Both the position numbers and the translations under genes were made by a program. A stretch of DNA of 49,736 nucleotides, from positions 1 through 49,736 of the IMG/VR virus record IMGVR_UViG_3300027499_000008, one strand, 5' to 3'. Source of the stretch: a virus. Below, in pieces: positions 3,214-43,200 of the stretch (its first letter is position 1; the number at the start of each line of letters is the position of its first letter). A model generated the notes under the pieces. The model had not been told where the DNA came from. It did no database searches and was given only the letters and a program-made list of their open reading frames with translations.

Positions 3214-4149
3214 ATGAAGATCGACATCACCACCGCCGCTATGCTCGGCTCCCTGAACATCAGCGTGTGGGAAGCACGCATCCAAGACAAGAGGACGAAG
3301 GACGAGGTGCTCGCCAACAAGGGTGCCAAGTCCAAGAAGGCAGCATCGGTATCCAAGAACTTGTTCTCGGAGTGCCCTGAACTCGAAGCCATCAAGACCA
3401 TTCGCAGTGAGGCCCGCGTCTGGTTCAACTCCCACACCTTGCCGTGGGATGACAACGGCAACAGGCTGATCACCACGAGGCAGTACCTCGACGTCACCGC
3501 CAAGGTGGCGGAGTACGAGTCCAAGTTCGACGGGCTGGTGCGGATCTTCGTCGGTGTGCTGGGCACGGCCATCTCAAAACAAGCCTTTGAGAACGGCGCA
3601 CTGTTCGATCGGTCGGAATACCCGACCGAGGACGAGGTGGCGGCGAAGTTCCGCTTCGGGCTATCCCTCAGCCCACTGCCTTCGTCGGGCGACTTCCGGG
3701 TCGACATCGGCCACGAGGCACAGCGGGTACTCGCTGAGCAGTACGAGCGTGCCACGGCAGAGCGTGTGGCCGGTGCGGTACAGGACACGTGGCAACGCGT
3801 GAAGTCCCAGGTCGAGTGGGTGCGGGAGAGGATGACCGCCGTGCTTGAGTATGACCCCGACGAGGTGGAGGAGATCAAGACCACGGACGAGGACGGCGTT
3901 GTGGTGTCGGTGGAGATTAAAAAGCGTCGTCGCCCGAAGCTCTACGACAGCATGTTGGAGCAGGGCCTTGAGCTGTGCAAGATGTTGTCGGACCTCAACG
4001 TCACCAACGACCCGCGCCTTGAGGAAGCGCGGCGTGACCTCGAACGTGCGCTGACCCGCGTCGACATGGACTCCCTCAAAGAGTCCCCTGAACTCCAGCG
4101 TGCCACGAAGCAGGCGATGGACGACATCCTCGACAAGTTCGCTCTTTGA
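3214..4149 (+). CDS. DUF3150-like protein, partner of AAA/VWA module
   Basis: This is a 311-residue, mostly helical, charged protein. The ATG at 3214 follows GGAGAG, and the longer ORF from 3061 overlaps the previous gene. Length, helical character and above all the neighbours (a MoxR/CobS-like ATPase and a VWA/metallopeptidase protein downstream) fit the DUF3150 family, which is found with such ATPase pairs in phages and bacteria. The molecular role is not established. By analogy with MoxR-VWA systems it could be a scaffold or substrate of a chaperone-like remodelling complex. The C-terminal third (EEARRDLERALTRVDMDS) is likely coiled coil. The family assignment is from memory. Confidence 0.65.
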   Translation: MKIDITTAAMLGSLNISVWEARIQDKRTKDEVLANKGAKSKKAASVSKNLFSECPELEAIKTIRSEARVWFNSHTLPWDDNGNRLITTRQYLDVTAKVAEYESKFDGLVRIFVGVLGTAISKQAFENGALFDRSEYPTEDEVAAKFRFGLSLSPLPSSGDFRVDIGHEAQRVLAEQYERATAERVAGAVQDTWQRVKSQVEWVRERMTAVLEYDPDEVEEIKTTDEDGVVVSVEIKKRRRPKLYDSMLEQGLELCKMLSDLNVTNDPRLEEARRDLERALTRVDMDSLKESPELQRATKQAMDDILDKFAL

Positions 4150-4214: not shown

Positions 4215-4228
4215 ACAGGAGAACCTAT

Positions 4229-4450
4229 GTGAACCACGGCTTCTGGTACATGGCTGAGGCCGCCATGCACGGCGACGGCTACGGCGACGGCAACGGCTAC
4301 GGCTACGGCTACGGCTACGGCAACGGCAACGGCAACGGCAACGGCGACGGCTACGGCAACGGCAACGGCTACGGCAACGGCTACGGCAACGGCTACGGCA
4401 ACGGCTACGGCTACGGCTACGGCGACGGCAAACACGCTAAGACTTTTTAA
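4229..4450 (+). CDS. Gly-Tyr/Asn/Asp dipeptide-repeat protein A
   Basis: This is a 73-residue protein. The GTG start overlaps an ATGTGA and AGGAG lies 7 nt upstream. It has a 14-residue head (NHGFWYMAEAAMH), then 26 Gly-X dipeptides in which X is Tyr, Asn or Asp, then the tail GKHAKTF. Such a sequence should be disordered, rich in stacking Tyr and H-bonding Asn/Asp, and possibly prone to condensation or self-association. I know no function. It sits between the DUF3150-like gene and the AAA ATPase, and has a longer paralogue at 4730-4987. The conserved head and tail, and the frame kept throughout, argue that it is translated. Confidence 0.7.
   Translation: MNHGFWYMAEAAMHGDGYGDGNGYGYGYGYGNGNGNGNGDGYGNGNGYGNGYGNGYGNGYGYGYGDGKHAKTF
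4271..4426 (+). repeat. hexanucleotide array GGCNAC, 26 units
   Basis: These are 26 uninterrupted units of GGC-NAC in which only N changes (T, A or G, never C), giving Gly-Tyr, Gly-Asn or Gly-Asp. Unit-number changes stay in frame, so slippage would alter protein length without breaking it. Confidence 0.95.
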
Positions 4451-4469
4451 CTAAACGAAGGAACATCAG

Positions 4470-4733
4470 ATGCAAAACCTCGGATTCCAACTCGCCATTG
4501 TCGACAATGGCTTCGTGTATGTTGGCAGCATCATCCGTGATGGTGAGTATTACGCCATCACTTCGTGCCACAATGTCCGCAAAGCGGGCACAACGAAAGG
4601 CTTTGGACAACTCGCTATCGAAGGCCCACTGAAGGAAACAGTATTGGACAAGTGTCCCACCGTGCTGGTGCCCGTCAACAGCTTGTGTCATTTCATCGCT
4701 TGCAACGCTGATGTATGGAAGGCTTACATGTGA
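4470..4733 (+). CDS. hypothetical protein between the two repeat genes
   Basis: This is an 87-residue protein. The ATG follows AACGAAGGAACATC, the same binding site that precedes the AAA ATPase gene. The sequence begins MQNLGFQLAIVDNGFVYVG and looks like a small compact alpha/beta domain with four cysteines. I do not recognise it. Its stop TGA (4731-4733) overlaps the GTG start (4730) of the second Gly-repeat gene. Together with that second copy it looks like an insertion or duplication product between the first copy and the ATPase. Confidence 0.7.
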   Translation: MQNLGFQLAIVDNGFVYVGSIIRDGEYYAITSCHNVRKAGTTKGFGQLAIEGPLKETVLDKCPTVLVPVNSLCHFIACNADVWKAYM

Positions 4734-4987
4734 ACCACGGCTTCTGGTACATGGCTGAGGCCGCCATGCACGGCTACGGCTACGGCAACGGCTACGGCTA
4801 CGGCTACGGCTACGGCTACGGCGACGGCTACGGCAACGGCAACGGCGAAGGCAACGGCGACGGCTACGGCAACGGCTACGGCGACGGCGACGGCGACGGC
4901 AACGGCTACGGCTACGGCTACGGCTACGGCTACGGCGACGGCTACGGCGACGGCTACGGCGACGGCAAACACGCTAAGACTTTTTAA
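4730..4987 (+). CDS. Gly-Tyr/Asn/Asp dipeptide-repeat protein B
   Basis: This is an 85-residue paralogue of the protein at 4229-4450, with an identical 14-residue head and 7-residue tail around 32 Gly-X dipeptides (X is Tyr, Asn, Asp and once Glu). I choose the GTG at 4730 rather than the in-frame ATG at 4715 because it matches the first copy and has GGAAGG 7 nt upstream. It overlaps the stop of the preceding gene, so translation is probably coupled. The single Glu comes from GGCGAA, the only unit that breaks the NAC pattern. No function is known. Confidence 0.7.
   Translation: MNHGFWYMAEAAMHGYGYGNGYGYGYGYGYGDGYGNGNGEGNGDGYGNGYGDGDGDGNGYGYGYGYGYGDGYGDGYGDGKHAKTF
4772..4963 (+). repeat. hexanucleotide array GGCNAC, 32 units
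   Basis: These are 32 in-frame hexamer units, all GGC-NAC except one GGCGAA. Tyr units dominate both ends, and Asn/Asp/Glu units cluster in the middle. The unit order differs from the first array, so the two arrays have diverged since duplication. Confidence 0.95.
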
Positions 4988-5004
4988 CTAAACGAAGGAA
5001 CATC

Positions 5005-6051
5005 ATGAAGATCAGTATCAACCAATGCGCAGCGGCTATCAACGCTGTTGGTCAGCACACCACCGTCCTGATCGAGGGCCCTTCGGGCTCGGGCAAGTCC
5101 TCCATCCTCGGCATGCTCAACCTGCCGACGCACCGCAAGGTGTACATCGACTGCACCCAGATCGACGTGGGTGACATCCAGATCCCGAGCGTGAACCACA
5201 CCACGGGGACCAGCACCTTCTACCCCAACGAGGTGTTCGGTGTGCATGGCGAGCAGCCCGTCGCCATCTGCCTGGACGAGTTCGGCAAGGCTCCGCGCAG
5301 TGTTCAGAACGCACTGCTCCCCGTCGTGCTCGACCGCCGTGTCGGTACCCGCCCACTGCCCGCTGGCTCGGTGGTGTTTGCAACGACGAACCTCAGCTCC
5401 GAGGGTGTGGGTGACACGCTCCAGCTCCACGTCCGCAACCGCATGTCGGTGATCCCGATGCGCAAGCCCACCGTCGAGGAGTACGTCAACTACTCGCTGG
5501 CAAACGACGGCAACCCTGCCGTGCTGGCGTGGGTGCAGGAGACGCCGCAGACCTTGGCCGACGACGACACCGTGCCCAACCCGGACCAGAACCCCTACAT
5601 CTGGCACCGCAAGGACCCGAGCCGCAAGGCCTTCTGCTCTCCGCGCAGCATGACCGCTGCCGGTCGCGTGCTCAACGACGCCGAGCACCTCGATGACGAC
5701 ACCATGCGGGGCCTGCTCGCTGGCCTGATCGGCGCTCGCTCCGCTGCTGATCTGCATGTGTTCGTACAACTGGGCAACAAGCTGCCCTCGTGGAAGGCCA
5801 TCGTGACGAGCCCGCTCCAAGCCCCGGTGCCCGACACGCCGACGATGTGCATGATGCTGGTGCACCGTGCGATCACTCGCACCACGCAGGACACGCTTGA
5901 CCCAGTGATGGCGTACATGAAGCGCTTGCCCATGGAGCTGCAAGCTGTGTTCGTCAACCAGTTCCTGCGTATCCCGCAGCGTGCCAAGTTCGCTGCACTC
6001 AACAAGTCATTCACCAACTGGTGCATGGCTAACAACTGGATCATGGGATAA
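5005..6051 (+). CDS. MoxR/CobS-like AAA+ ATPase
   Basis: This is a 348-residue AAA+ ATPase. Walker A is GPSGSGKS (residues 25-32), Walker B is CLDE (90-93), and a sensor-1 asparagine lies in FATTN (126-130). The dynein/MidA/MoxR-type order fits a CobS or MoxR ATPase, which works with a VWA-domain partner to remodel protein complexes or insert metals. The next gene encodes just such a partner, with the DUF3150-like gene upstream. The ATG at 5005 follows AACGAAGG. A cytoplasmic ATP-driven remodelling or chaperone role in infection is inferred and the target is unknown. Confidence 0.85.
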   Translation: MKISINQCAAAINAVGQHTTVLIEGPSGSGKSSILGMLNLPTHRKVYIDCTQIDVGDIQIPSVNHTTGTSTFYPNEVFGVHGEQPVAICLDEFGKAPRSVQNALLPVVLDRRVGTRPLPAGSVVFATTNLSSEGVGDTLQLHVRNRMSVIPMRKPTVEEYVNYSLANDGNPAVLAWVQETPQTLADDDTVPNPDQNPYIWHRKDPSRKAFCSPRSMTAAGRVLNDAEHLDDDTMRGLLAGLIGARSAADLHVFVQLGNKLPSWKAIVTSPLQAPVPDTPTMCMMLVHRAITRTTQDTLDPVMAYMKRLPMELQAVFVNQFLRIPQRAKFAALNKSFTNWCMANNWIMG

Positions 6052-6097: not shown

Positions 6098-7306
6098 ATG
6101 CTGTCCGCCGAGGACCGAATCACCAAGGCCCGTGCCAAGATCATGCGCGACGAGCGCTTCACCGCCATCTCACCGATCCTGATGGTCGGTTCGTGGCAAG
6201 TGGTGGACGACATACCCACTGCGGCAACCAACGGACGCGACGTCTTTTATGGTCGAGCCTTCGTCAACCAGTGCGACGACAAGCTCTTGCGCTTCGTCGT
6301 CTTGCACGAGTACTTCCACGTAATGCTCATGCACATGACGACGTGGGCCAAGCTCGACAAGGACGACGCGCAACTGTCCAACATCGCCAAGGACATGGTG
6401 ATCAACAACATGCTCAAGGCGATGGACCCGGGCGGGCAGTTCATCACCATCTGGGAGAACGCGTACTGTGACCCGCAGTACGATGGGCTCGACACCGGTG
6501 AGGTGTACAGGCGGCTCAAACAACAGGCACAGTCCAAGCCGCAGAGCGGCGGGGGCGGCAGCGGCAACGGGCCCAAGGGTCAACAGTTCGACCAGCACCA
6601 ACCTGCGGCGGGCGATGGGGACGGCGACGGTGACGAGGGTGGACCCGCACCCCTGACTCAGGCCGAGGCCGAGGAGGTAGCCAAGGCTGTCGACAACGCG
6701 CTGCGCCAAGGGGCGCTGATCGCAGGCAAGACGGGTGCTGGCATGTCCCGTGACATCGAGGCGCTCCTTGAGCCTGTGGTGCCCTGGCAGGACGTGCTGC
6801 GTGACTGGCTGACCAACACCGCCAAGGGCGGCGACCTGTCGACGTGGGCTCGGCCCGCTCGACGCTGGCTCGGGCAGGATCTCTACCTGCCATCACGGTA
6901 CACGGAAGCGGTCGACCGCATCGTGATCGGTATTGACACCAGCGGCTCCATCGACGACGAGCAACTCCGCCGTGCACTGAGCGAGGCGGCCAGTGCCTGC
7001 GAGGCTGTCTGTCCGCAGATGGTCGACGTGATCTATTGGGACTGGGCGGTCGCAGCACACGAGTCCTACGAGGGCGAGCGGGTGCAGGACATCGTCAAGG
7101 CGACGAAGCCCAAGGGCGGCGGGGGTACCGACGTGCGGGCCCTGTTCAACTTCATCGACCAGCGGGGGCTGAACCCCAACGCGGTGATCGTCTTCACCGA
7201 TGGCTACACGCCGTGGCCTGCGGACCTCAAGCACCCGACGCTGTGGTGCATCAGCACCAAGGGGCTCCGCGCCCCGGTGGGGGAGACGCTGTATGTCCCA
7301 GCCTGA
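6098..7306 (+). CDS. VWA-domain protein with HExxH metallopeptidase-like domain
   Basis: This is a 402-residue protein. The ATG at 6098 has GAAGGAGA upstream. The N-terminal domain carries HEYFH (residues 70-74), an HExxH zinc motif, followed by NIAKDMVINN. This resembles the putative metallopeptidase part of DUF2201-type proteins. A Gly/Asp-rich linker (about 148-183) leads to a C-terminal VWA domain with the MIDAS motif DTSGS (280-284), a downstream GGTD and FTDGY. All three MIDAS elements are present, so Mg binding is likely. It is the expected partner of the upstream AAA ATPase. Its last 14 nt overlap the next gene. Confidence 0.85.
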   Translation: MLSAEDRITKARAKIMRDERFTAISPILMVGSWQVVDDIPTAATNGRDVFYGRAFVNQCDDKLLRFVVLHEYFHVMLMHMTTWAKLDKDDAQLSNIAKDMVINNMLKAMDPGGQFITIWENAYCDPQYDGLDTGEVYRRLKQQAQSKPQSGGGGSGNGPKGQQFDQHQPAAGDGDGDGDEGGPAPLTQAEAEEVAKAVDNALRQGALIAGKTGAGMSRDIEALLEPVVPWQDVLRDWLTNTAKGGDLSTWARPARRWLGQDLYLPSRYTEAVDRIVIGIDTSGSIDDEQLRRALSEAASACEAVCPQMVDVIYWDWAVAAHESYEGERVQDIVKATKPKGGGGTDVRALFNFIDQRGLNPNAVIVFTDGYTPWPADLKHPTLWCISTKGLRAPVGETLYVPA

Positions 7307-12937: not shown

Positions 12938-14253
12938 TGGAGATAGTAACGCTAGATTTCGAGACGTTTTATGACCGTGAGTACAATCTAACCAAACTCA
13001 CTACCGAAGAGTACATCCGCGACCCACGCTTTGAAGTCATCATGCTCGGCGTGCGCTGGCCGGATGGATCGAAGGAGGTCGTCTCTGGCACCCACCTTGA
13101 GATCAAGCAGTGGTGCGATGCGGTGCCGTGGGGGCAGTACGCGATCCTGTGCCACAACACACTCTTCGACGGTGCCATCCTGTCGTGGAAGTTCGGGGTC
13201 AAGCCCCGCGTGTGGCTCGACACCCTCAGCATGGGACGCGGCATGTTCAGTGCCCGGAACAACTCCTTGGCGTCGCTGGCCAAGCGCTACCATCTGGAGG
13301 ACAAGGGTACCTATGTCATGAACATGATGGGGCGTAGGCGCTCTGACATGTCTCCGGGGGAGTTCAAACAGTACGCCGAATACTGCCTGCTCGACGTCGA
13401 CCTGTGCCATGACTTGTGGCACCTCATGTCCAGTGGCTGGTACAACCTGACCGAGGGGGACATTCGAGGCCCCTACCCTCTTGAGGAACTGAAGCTCATC
13501 GACCTGCACATTCGCATGTTCACCGAGCCGATGCTCCGGCTCAACCGAGGCAAGCTGGAGACACACCTCGCAGCGGTGCGGGCCCGCAAGGCGAACCTGC
13601 TGTGTGCCGCCGCAGTGGACGTCGAGTCGCTGATGAGCAACCAGAAGTTCGCAGAGGTGCTCAAGGGCTTTGGCGTTGACCCACCGACGAAGATCAGCCC
13701 GACCACGAACAAGCCCACCTTTGCCTTCGCCAAGACCGACCCGGGCATGAAGGCCCTCCTCGAACACGAGGATGAGCGGGTGCAGGCTGTGGCTGCTGCA
13801 CGACTTGGCGTCAAGAGCACCCTGGAGGAGACGCGCACGGAGCGCTTCATCGGGATCGCAACCCGGGGCGGTGCCTTCCCCGTGCCGCTCAAGTACGCCT
13901 ATGCGCGAACAAAAAGGTCATCTGGCTGCCTAGTAGCCGGAACGCAGGTCTTAGTGTATGATCCAGGCCAGCGCGGTGTCGTGAGCAAGCAGATCGTAGA
14001 TGTGCTAGCCGATGACCTCGTATGGGACGGAGAGGCATTCGTTGAACACGAAGGGGTTCAGTTCAGCGGGTACCGCGAAGTCATATCTTGGGATGGCGTA
14101 ACAGGAACACCAGAACATGTCGTATTCACCGAATCTGGCGAGATCAGCTTACTTGAAGCAATGCAGAGACAATGTAGAATCAAAACTACTAGAAATCCTT
14201 CCGACGACGACGTTGACTCCGCTAGAGTCGTTGCACACCACCTACGCAAGTAG
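12937..14253 (+). CDS. DNA polymerase I (family A), N-terminal part fused to intein N-segment
   Basis: This is a 438-residue protein. Residues 1-330 are the N-part of a family A DNA polymerase with a 3'-5' exonuclease. ExoI is LDFETFYD, ExoII is CHNTLFDGAIL, and ExoIII is YAEYCLLDVD. The polymerase part stops at LKYAYARTKRSSG, inside the conserved T-x-R-x-S...LQNLP motif. From Cys331 the sequence is an intein: block A is CLVAGTQVLVYD, and a B block with TPEH follows about 60 residues later. The polymerase resumes in another ORF at 14868. The stop at 14251-14253 is in frame with no visible frameshift signal. The functional enzyme needs either protein trans-splicing or two frameshifts. Confidence 0.9.
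   Translation: MEIVTLDFETFYDREYNLTKLTTEEYIRDPRFEVIMLGVRWPDGSKEVVSGTHLEIKQWCDAVPWGQYAILCHNTLFDGAILSWKFGVKPRVWLDTLSMGRGMFSARNNSLASLAKRYHLEDKGTYVMNMMGRRRSDMSPGEFKQYAEYCLLDVDLCHDLWHLMSSGWYNLTEGDIRGPYPLEELKLIDLHIRMFTEPMLRLNRGKLETHLAAVRARKANLLCAAAVDVESLMSNQKFAEVLKGFGVDPPTKISPTTNKPTFAFAKTDPGMKALLEHEDERVQAVAAARLGVKSTLEETRTERFIGIATRGGAFPVPLKYAYARTKRSSGCLVAGTQVLVYDPGQRGVVSKQIVDVLADDLVWDGEAFVEHEGVQFSGYREVISWDGVTGTPEHVVFTESGEISLLEAMQRQCRIKTTRNPSDDDVDSARVVAHHLRK
13927..14250 (+). other. intein N-terminal splicing segment (about 108 aa)
   Basis: The segment begins with the nucleophilic Cys codon at 13927-13929. Block A (CLVAGTQVLV), DLVWDGEAFVEHEGV and block B GTPEH (Thr and His present) fit phage inteins of the type C-L-x-x-G-T...VWDG..W..H.GV...G.R.V...DG...TP.H. 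The base composition is visibly AT-richer than that of the polymerase. Confidence 0.9.
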
Positions 14254-14887
14254 AATACTGATGCGGTGCCAATGTGGCACCGAGAAACGCTTTAGAGTGT
14301 CTGACCTGATAGCAGGAACAAAGAAATGCCTACCGTGCTCTTCTAAAGAGCGGGCCGCTAAAAAGACACCGGAGATGCGCCGCGCTTTTGCTGTGAAAGG
14401 GTCCCAGGCCGCGCTCAAGGCGAATACTCAAAAACTGGAGTCAGATCCGTTGCGTGCGCAGTTCGGGCATGCACAACTTGAACTAATATCCAAAATGGGG
14501 ATAAGTGCCAAAGGGCGGTGCACGAATAAAAACAACGCTGCGTATGCAAACTACGGGGGTAGAAGTATAGAGTTTAAGTTCCCTACGATTCGCGCATTTG
14601 CTGAATGGGTGCTACAAAATTTGGGTCCCAGACCAAACAGCGCGTATTCTATAGACCGCATAGACAACAACGCGCACTACGAACCCGGGAATCTTCGATG
14701 GGCCACTAGAACTGAGCAAGCGCGCAATAAACGCATGTACAAACGAACTGCTCAAGGGGAACGTATACGAAGTCTGCAAGTCCAAAGGCCAGATTTAACA
14801 TATGAGACCTTGAGAATTTGGATTAAACAGGGTGCATCTGACGATGAAATTCTACAAAGGGTGAAGTATGCTCGTCCCGGTATATGA
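14117..14887 (+). CDS. HNH homing endonuclease between intein halves
   Basis: This is up to 256 residues. It lies in a different frame from both polymerase parts and overlaps the N-part by up to 137 nt and the C-part by 20 nt. RCQCGTEK...CLPC forms an N-terminal zinc knuckle. The C-terminal half has GRCTNKNNAAYANYGGRSI, then YSIDRIDNNAHYEPGNLRWA and TRTEQARNKR. This is the HNH type common in phage homing endonucleases (D-R-I-D-N-x-x-H-Y-x-x-G-N-x-R-W-A). The start is uncertain: ATG 14117, TTG 14213 or ATG 14261. It is AT-rich. It should cut intein-less polymerase genes and drive spread of the element. Confidence 0.85.
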   Translation: MSYSPNLARSAYLKQCRDNVESKLLEILPTTTLTPLESLHTTYASRILMRCQCGTEKRFRVSDLIAGTKKCLPCSSKERAAKKTPEMRRAFAVKGSQAALKANTQKLESDPLRAQFGHAQLELISKMGISAKGRCTNKNNAAYANYGGRSIEFKFPTIRAFAEWVLQNLGPRPNSAYSIDRIDNNAHYEPGNLRWATRTEQARNKRMYKRTAQGERIRSLQVQRPDLTYETLRIWIKQGASDDEILQRVKYARPGI

Positions 14888-14945
14888 CATAAAGAACTGC
14901 GGGCCTCGCCACAGGTTTGTGGCTAACGGCAAGCTAGTTCATAAT
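14868..14945 (+). other. intein C-terminal splicing segment (26 aa)
   Basis: Blocks F and G read VYDIKNCGPRHRF and LVHN, followed by Ser as the +1 residue. The terminal His-Asn needed for asparagine cyclisation is present. At 26 residues it is shorter than the C-segments of the better known natural split inteins (about 36 aa for DnaE and gp41-1, from memory). Confidence 0.9.
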
Positions 14946-40240: not shown

Positions 40241-43200
40241 TCAAGTTTGGATCTCGACCCAGTTCGGGCCCTGCGCGTCGTTGATCTGCACCCATCCCGG
40301 GGACTGCGCCGTTACCACATTCTGCCAGTTCGCGCTCTGGGTGTCATCTATCGGATTCCAGAGGTAGCCCCCAACGACAACGTCGGTGATCGCGCCGGTC
40401 TCGCTGAGAGAGACGTTGAAGGTCGAACCAACCACGGCAGGGGTGTCCTGCCCGATCGCTGAGGCGCTGAAGCTCGCGTTGAAGGTCGACGCTGCGACGG
40501 CAGGGGCATCAAGCCCCGAGGCCGTGTCCGAGAAGGACACGTTGAGCGTTGCGGCAGCGGAGACCGCGTCCGAACCCGTGGCTACATCCGAAAACTCGAC
40601 GCCGAGCGTAGCGATCGTGGAGACCGCGTCTGCCCCCGTGGCAGTGTCGGAGAAGGCTGCGCTGAAGGAGAGCCCGGCCAGCAGGCTGTCCGCGCCCGTG
40701 GCGGTGTCGGAGAAGGAGACGTTGAACGCAGCGGCTGCGCTGAAGGCATCCACCCCTGTGACAGTGTCGGAGAAGGCTGCACCGAGCGCAGTGACTGCGC
40801 TGAACACGTCGGCACCCGTGGCGGTGTCGCTCACCGAGACAGTGAACACCCCCGTAGAGGGGACTGCGTCTGCACCGGTGGCCGTGTCGGAGATGCTCGC
40901 GCCGAAGGTTGAGGCCGCGACGGCAACGGTATCAGCACCCGTGGCCGTGTCGGAGAAGGAGACGTTGAACGCAAGGCCTGCGGAAACGGTGTCAGCACCC
41001 GTGGCGGTGTCGGAGAATGACGCGTTGAAGGCAAATGAGGCGCTGAACGCGTCCGAGCCTGTGGCGGTGTCAGAAAAAGCTGCGGCAAACGAAAGCCCTG
41101 CGCTGAACGCGTCGGCACCGGTAACCGTGTCGGAAAAGGCGGTGTTGAAGGTCCCTGTGGTAGAGACCGTGTCCGCACCCGTGACGGTGTCAGAGAAGGA
41201 CACGTTGAAGGCGAACGAGGTGGAGATTGCGTCCGAGCCCGTGGCCGTATCGGAGAAGGAGGCGTTGAACGACGTGCCGCCCGAAGCCTCGAACAGCCAG
41301 CCCAGCGAGCCGTTGTTGGTCGAGTTGGCCCCTGCGTACCACGTGGCGTTCAGATCGTAGGCGCGGATGCCGGTGATCGTCAGGTAGTCAGGCGTGGTCA
41401 CCGTGCCCGAGGTCAGCACCAGCGTCGCAGGGGAGGACGCAGAAGAACCTGTCAGCGTCAACACTCTACCGGCTTCACCAGTAGCAGTGAAGCTACCAAC
41501 ACGCTGTGTCGTTGTGCCGAAGGCGATGGTGGTGGCACCAGTGGCGCTGTAGGTGTTGGTGATGTTGGCGAAGGTGTTGTTGCCGTTAACGGACAGCGCG
41601 CCTGCACCTCCTTGGTTGAGGGTGATGCCGCTGTAGGAGACGCTGCCGCCTGCAAAGGTCTTGGCAGATGCGGAGGTGAGGCTGATGGTGCCGGTGCCGG
41701 TGACGGTGAGGTTGGTGGAGGTGGCTGCGCTCCATCCGGACGCACTAGCGATTGACCAAGTTCCAGAACCCACATCAACTGTCCGAACACTTGAATAGCT
41801 AGTGCCAAAAAAACCAGTGGAAAGAGTTACGTTATAGGATGACGCAGAAAACGTACCGCTAACAACAGTAAAGTTGGTGTTTGGTAAAGTTAGAGCATCT
41901 TGCAAAGTAACAGAACCTGAAGGTGAATCAATATTTAAACCCCCTGAGAAATTCGTGCCAGCATTTGTAATTGTTTGACTACCGCGCCCTGCAAACGTAA
42001 TATTGCCTGTGCCTGTTAACGTAGTTCCAGTACCGTTGATCCAGTTGCCGTAGATTGCTGGTGTGGTTGAGCCCGTCGCCAGCGTCATCGTATTCGTCGT
42101 CCTAGCCGACATGTCGATGGTGCCGATGTTGTAGGCTCGGTTGATGGTGACGGTAGCGCCGCTGTTCAACCCTGTGGCTTCAAAGAAGCAGGTGTCTTGC
42201 GCGAGAGGGAAGTCGTTGATGTTCGGCGTGCCACCGCTTGACGTCGCCCATCCAATAGCACCGCCCCAGTTGCCGCCAGCAGCAAGGTTCCAATACTTGT
42301 TTGACGCAGCCGTGAACGTAACACCGCTGTTGCCTTTGCAATCGCCAATGCGTGTCCCCGTCGCTGGCGCTGCTGCACCGGCTATGGTGATGTCTCTGAA
42401 GTCAACGTCGGTGAGGCTGGCAGCCGCGCAGGTGAGCGTGCGTGTGGTGCCGATGGTGTTGGAGCGAACGAAGTGACGCATCGTGGCGTTGGTGCCTGCG
42501 GAGAGCGTCAGAGTGCCGGTGATGGTCTGGTTGGCTGTGACGCTGATGATCTTTAAACCAGCAGAGGTGATGCCGGTGAAGGACAGGTTGTTGAAGCTGT
42601 TGGTGCCGTTGATGGTAACGGTGCCTGCGGATGTGCTGGTGAAGGCGACGTTGTAGAAGGTTTGGTTGTTGCCGGAAAAAGTAATACCAGAGGCGCTGAT
42701 ATTTAACTGAGAAGTTCCCGCATTAAAAGTAAAACTAGATCGACTGGTTTCTGTCGTATTAAAATTAATACCAGATGATAGGGTTATAGTTCCTGAGCTA
42801 AATTTAACATCTTTTGTTGTGTTAGCGGGGGTTGAGCTTAGCGTTAATTCTCCAGCAGTCAAATTATAAGAAGAAAGATCGAGACCTCCTTCACGTATGA
42901 TAAATTGACCTGTGCCGCTGTTCAGCGCACTACCCAACGCCCACTCACACCCAACTCCATTCACCGTAATAGCGGACGCCAACGCCACTCCATTAGTCGT
43001 CAACGTCAACCCCGACGTAGACCCTGACAGCGTGATGTTTCCAGTATACGTCCGCGTCAGCCCTGTCGCAGGCAGCGTCACGCTGCCGTGAATACCGTCA
43101 ATAGCTGCGCTTCCTGCCAGCGTCACGTTGCCCACCAACGGGCCTGCAATGGTCAGAGACTTCATCCTGATGCCGCCAGTGACCGTATTCACCGTGGCTG

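Follow-up and report, generated by a model that had tools for sequence, protein, structure and literature searches.

Some eukaryotic Sm/LSm proteins carry low-complexity tails. Hfq has a disordered acidic tail (acidic tip) that contends with nucleic acid for the core (PMC5606850), and how many GGFGGQ repeats Acinetobacter Hfq carries is important for its function (PMC11617691). The phage locus analysed here resembles Hfq in that it appears to combine a predicted Sm-type core with a disordered Gly/aromatic/acidic tail of variable repeat number. However, there are several differences. Hfq is one protein, whereas the phage module consists of two separate, overlapping genes, and the phage chain strictly alternates Gly-X, with Tyr, Asp, Asn or Ser as X. 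The core protein, here called W, has no LSM or Hfq sequence match, and its likeness to Hfq rests on the predicted fold. The likeness to eukaryotic Sm/LSm proteins likewise lies in a predicted Sm fold with low-complexity sequence, these proteins being structural neighbours of W in Foldseek searches, but the tail chemistry differs, the genes are separate and there is no detectable sequence homology. The marine Sm-like protein 3BY7 (TM 0.60/0.67, with a weak score and 11% identity) and phage Sm-like proteins in BFVD have barrels similar to the predicted barrel of W but, unlike W, no known array partner. Many W proteins directly match DUF6948 (PF22253), a phage domain of unknown function; in the openly licensed literature, we found no mention of DUF6948, its predicted Sm-like fold or its array partner.

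The window, by which we mean the whole analysed stretch of 49,736 nucleotides of viral DNA (IMG/VR record IMGVR_UViG_3300027499_000008), carries two repeat genes, A and B, in which a short head is followed by an array of GGCNAC hexamers encoding Gly-X units (Table 1). A good ribosome site, AGGAGA, precedes gene A, and the GTG start of gene B lies within the last codons of W, in an ATGTGA overlap. An earlier note on this DNA had described two repeat genes in one operon with 26 and 32 hexamers, and our recount gave the same numbers. It had called them a duplicated cassette, but the actual unit is repeat gene, W, repeat gene. The common 5′ end of the two genes is exactly 47 bp long, as the note had it (from 4227 and 4728), whereas the common 3′ end, previously given as 54 bp, is 56 bp when the last array bases are counted. 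Together the arrays contain GGCTAC 29 times, GGCAAC 16 times, GGCGAC 12 times and GGCGAA once, and apart from this single GGCGAA all variation lies in the first base of the second codon, which agrees with the earlier observation. The proposal of a Tyr-rich peptide also holds, the composition being rich in Tyr and Gly and of the sticker-and-spacer type. GGC accounts for only 43% of Gly codons in the plus-strand genes of the window but for 58 of 58 in the arrays (p ~1e-21), so the purity of the arrays is not due to codon bias. Matches of the arrays to Pfam TrAA12 and PHROG 18306 reflect composition only. We also considered a diversity-generating retroelement target, which was rejected: such a target would show mutation of both adenines of AAY codons, but all window units keep A at position 5, and their variation is confined to the first base of the second codon.

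Table 1. Features of the repeat-gene cassette and its operon in the window
Feature	Position	Strand	Description
Upstream operon gene	3214..4149	+	Earlier called 'DUF3150-like'; no significant Pfam match
Gene A (GXG gene)	CDS 4229-4450 (4227..4450 including ATGTGA)	+	GTG start, 73 aa; head VNHGFWYMAEAAMH, 26 G-X units, tail GKHAKTF
Array A	4271..4426	+	Tandem repeat of 26 GGCNAC units, DYDNYYYYNNNNDYNNYNYNYNYYYD
W	4470..4733	+	87 aa; DUF6948 superfamily, predicted Sm/LSm-like barrel; conserved partner of GXG genes
Gene B (GXG gene)	4730..4987	+	GTG start, 85 aa; 32 G-X units; head and tail as in gene A
Array B	4772..4963	+	32 units, YYNYYYYYDYNNENDYNYDDDNYYYYYDYDYD
MoxR-like AAA ATPase	5005..6051	+	AAA_5, PHROG 1297; cassette directly upstream
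DUF2201 metallopeptidase/VWA protein	6098..7306	+	Same operon

The repeat genes had been placed between a DUF3150-like and a MoxR-like gene; the downstream neighbour is indeed a MoxR-like AAA_5 ATPase, but the DUF3150 label has no Pfam support. The position upstream of the MoxR gene is taken by a different small gene in another locus (L017, ~2350-2549), so it appears to be a hot spot for cargo genes. Elsewhere in the window, a family-A-like DNA polymerase region is spread over several ORFs (14117-14945), with an intein-like end, VYDIKNCGPRHRFVANGKLVHNS, at ~14868-14945 that suggests a polymerase intein. Tandem repeats of 60 and 243 bp lie at 40622-41071 in a 2044-aa minus-strand ORF, which probably encodes a structural protein.

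The combination of W with a G-X gene extends far beyond this window. Among the matches listed, a W gene is directly upstream in 76 of 119 Y-containing arrays. We also searched from the W side, using motif patterns that are blind to arrays. Among the matches listed, an array gene was just downstream of W in 91 of 101 loci with the WGTTKGLGE motif and in 77 of 82 loci of the DUF6948 type, against a background of 4.5% of random windows from the same loci that carry an array. Seven of the ten arrayless loci in the WGTTKGLGE set are near-identical copies from one lineage. In a pooled non-redundant set, which includes loci selected for their arrays, the array is present in 156 of 173 cases, and about 8% of W loci have no recognised array (both among the matches listed). 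The array gene mostly starts 1-22 nt, and most often 4-22 nt, inside the end of W in the 156 pairs, and the array ends at most two residues from the stop codon in 114 of 166 cases, again among the matches listed; in the window, gene B overlaps W in the same manner. Heads of the array genes are short and fall into recurrent types (TLD, E[ED][SA][QH] and RPV). In one locus (L043), W and the array are naturally fused in a single ORF. Isolates with the pair include Barba, RcapNL, PhiPLPE, Ymer, CV-1-33, IKEMa6-1 and ct8d5349, and an array gene, unannotated in some of them, follows W in every W-bearing isolate examined. The array gene of Iodobacter phage PhiPLPE (L154, 1164-1409), for example, is without annotation in the public record. 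The pair is found near genes for RecT, ERF, YqaJ, SSB, DnaB and the MoxR/DUF2201 pair, which places the module in the early recombination/replication region. That W and the G-X gene form a near-obligate phage pair is thus well supported, and this two-gene module, which is widespread across a wide range of phages, is apparently undescribed; the main text of the Barba phage papers, including the transcriptome paper, does not discuss these genes. A search of 398 bacterial genomes, made without a positive control, gave no DUF6948 match.

Among 40 relatives of W, 23 match Pfam DUF6948 directly. The window W has no direct Pfam match itself; it is linked to DUF6948 sequences by hhalign (probability 93.8, E 1.7e-7), is joined to the family by an iterated HMM, and matches DUF6948 in a structure search of BFVD (E 1.2e-5). 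By these comparisons, it belongs to the DUF6948 superfamily. Modelled by AlphaFold as single chains, the window W (pLDDT 95.7) and a DUF6948 member (pLDDT 94.6) have the same barrel, with the same order of strands and helix. For both models, the top Foldseek matches in the PDB are almost all Sm/LSm proteins, some of them RNA-bound, with probabilities of 0.9-1.0 but E-values of 0.003-0.05 and TM scores of 0.45-0.6. The models have an extra helix between strands 3 and 4, and W has no sequence relative in the PDB. Given the modest E-values, an Sm-like barrel is the likely, but not certain, fold. As none of the 40 W members matches the LSM profile PF01423 at E up to 10, we do not file W as a member of the LSm family, and these same two observations make it possible that W is an SH3-like barrel with another job.

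A rival proposal is that W is a peptide-binding barrel without a nucleic-acid role, which builds a scaffold or condensate with the G-X chain through Tyr contacts. The net charge of W domains is near zero, which does not favour a simple basic RNA binder, and this property, the alphabet of Tyr stickers with Gly, Ser, Asn and Asp spacers, and the natural fusion of W with an array would all suit such a barrel. However, two independent models have almost only Sm/LSm proteins as their top neighbours in structure, RNA-bound examples included, and we consider the proposal rather unlikely.

The closest relatives of the window show how the cassette changes. Five IMG/VR contigs from a single related group of phages contain its head, for which the earlier note had suggested a search in other phages; this head is not universal, and other phages use different short heads. 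A scan of genome contigs for the head gave one match, which we put down to chance, and one locus (L118) contains a distant relative of both the window head and W. The same three-gene cassette is present in four of the five contigs, and the fifth, which ends at the contig edge, shows one copy. Different samples yielded these four contigs, whose cassettes are identical, with two flanking SNPs each relative to the first. Because this cassette recurs identically in four contigs, and the same kind of array occurs in 115 isolate genomes of another phage, the arrays are not an assembly artefact, which the earlier note had named as a finding that would refute it. Relative to the window, the arrays of these contigs differ in length and order, and they contain some His, one Ser and one Arg, with GGCCAC, AGC and CGC among their codons. 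The claim that His never occurs is therefore true of the 58 window units but not of close relatives. Part of the head reads GAG GCC GCC in both copies in the window and GAA GCC GCT in both copies in the relatives. Both heads are alike within each genome, so the copies evolve in concert. All head differences between the window and its relatives are synonymous, so the head is kept at the protein level, which bears out the suggestion of selection on it. For comparison, 14-26% of four-fold sites in the surrounding genes differ between window and relatives. The cassette is absent from three other relatives with 93-97% MoxR identity, so it is accessory.

Changes in the arrays can be followed at still closer range in 115 genomes of Rheinheimera 'Barba' phages from one host, all of which carry the W-array pair and of which we read seven regions. 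In five Barba18A-type isolates, W and the 450 bp downstream are identical, yet there are five forms of the array, which differ by one Y/N change, one extra Y, one extra N and one rearrangement. Barba19A and 31A, whose flanks are 99.7% identical, differ in the number (34 and 36, respectively) and order of their units, and a TAT GGT GAC block appears three times in each. Length differences between Barba isolates (+6, +30 and +42 bp), like those between the window and its relatives, agree with the earlier expectation of in-frame length change. Gains, swaps and Y-N changes of units between identical flanks indicate that the arrays turn over by unit-wise slippage or recombination, under selection at the protein level. 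The arrays of Barba19A and of one further locus (L075) contain clear blocks, but the order of units is only partly repetitive, so block duplication alone is not proved.

Hypervariable arrays in isolates, an accessory presence that varies between close relatives and an early-region position beside recombination genes are also what might be expected of an anti-defence device, in which the pair mimics, traps or inhibits a host protein and the array changes in an arms race. The same simple alphabet is used across very diverse phages, though, which is unlike the evasion of one binding partner, and we regard this explanation as unlikely.

The wider class of arrays was collected by pattern scans, and the counts are samples from the matches listed. 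Runs of at least 10 GGNNAY units occur in at least 119 stretches of viral DNA. Among the matches listed, the Gly codon is fully pure in 73% of the 119 Y-containing arrays, and an unbiased count of residues gives Y 41, D 30, N 17, S 8 and H 0.6%, so His is strongly, though not completely, excluded. The preferred codon differs from array to array, often against the usage of the contig, with GGG (L034 and L131), GGA (L066, L102 and L112) and NAT arrays (L092, L109 and L113) among them. As codons switch (GGC, GGA, GGG, GGT; NAC/NAT) while the peptide is constant, selection acts on the protein. Judged by these sequences, each array is homogenised internally at synonymous sites and the peptide is the conserved thing. 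A search with the repeat protein by tblastn gave no matches, owing to low-complexity filtering.

Array purity and unit-wise length change do resemble slippage, but it is very improbable that the arrays are functionless products of neutral hexamer slippage tolerated at the end of an operon gene, given the near-obligate linkage to W, the conserved overlap, the limited set of residues with His strongly depleted in independent arrays whatever their codon choice, and the contrast with Gly-Asp linkers of large proteins, many of which have mixed codons, often at the third base. We give equally little credence to the array being a DNA or RNA element (a binding site for W, a quadruplex-like GGN4 repeat or a regulator) rather than a peptide, in spite of the near-perfect synonymous purity within each array, since codons switch between arrays (GGA, GGG, GGT; NAT) with only the frame-0 peptide constant, and Rfam gave no match in ten related loci. 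The other reading frames fared no better. A minus-strand Val-Ala reading, in which the variable base would be synonymous, needs zero GTG among 57 Val codons in the window arrays, against 42% usage, and is also ruled out by arrays with other Gly codons; the codon switch likewise rules out a frame-2 Ala-Thr reading.

Some arrays are part of larger proteins. Five (L038, L067, L079, L093 and L141) carry a fused C-terminal domain of the KSLNxQxVYxIDGVPTII ... LTGSC type, and two (L119 and L134) carry another, FWRSxxxGxPANGGTG; the one domain of each type searched against Pfam (L038 and L134) had no match. A further array (L059) is fused to a DUF7666 domain. Long heads with a common GAC.DGV motif occur in six loci (L039, L049, L064, L081, L115 and L136), and two of these, L081 and L115, have the same head but 21 and 48 units, respectively.

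The reading we prefer is an accessory phage module in which two kinds of genes would work as a unit. W would form an Sm-like assembly, and we infer that it is a ring that binds and handles nucleic acid early in infection. The G-X chain, whose short head precedes Gly residues alternating with Tyr, Asp, Asn or Ser, is probably intrinsically disordered, and may act in trans as the low-complexity tail of W, docking, as we infer, via its head. Its effect could be to adjust binding and release, a role that the glycine-rich or acidic C-terminal domains of Hfq play, or to concentrate the complex through weak Tyr-based contacts. The array changes fast as whole hexamers are gained, lost or copied, a process that keeps the frame and homogenises synonymous sites, while selection holds the Y/D/N/S alphabet. 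In the window, there is a second G-X gene, upstream of W. By analogy with Hfq and LSm proteins and from the predicted fold, we give about an even chance to a split system of this kind, in which an Sm-fold protein works with a separate disordered Tyr/Asp-rich tail. A more specific version, in which the Sm-fold protein and its hypervariable chain assemble a nucleic-acid-handling condensate in infected cells and hexamer recombination tunes the length and composition of the array, is a tentative and somewhat unlikely proposal.

The pair is present in hundreds of phage contigs and more than 100 sequenced isolates, although its repeat gene is often unannotated or called a 'hypothetical protein', which low-complexity filtering probably explains. 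The pairing gives DUF6948 a predicted Sm-like fold plus a partner. Furthermore, the repeat length and composition of a putatively disordered chain vary between otherwise identical isolates, which provides a natural test system. Since this variation occurs in culturable lytic phages, the role of disordered tails should be directly testable.
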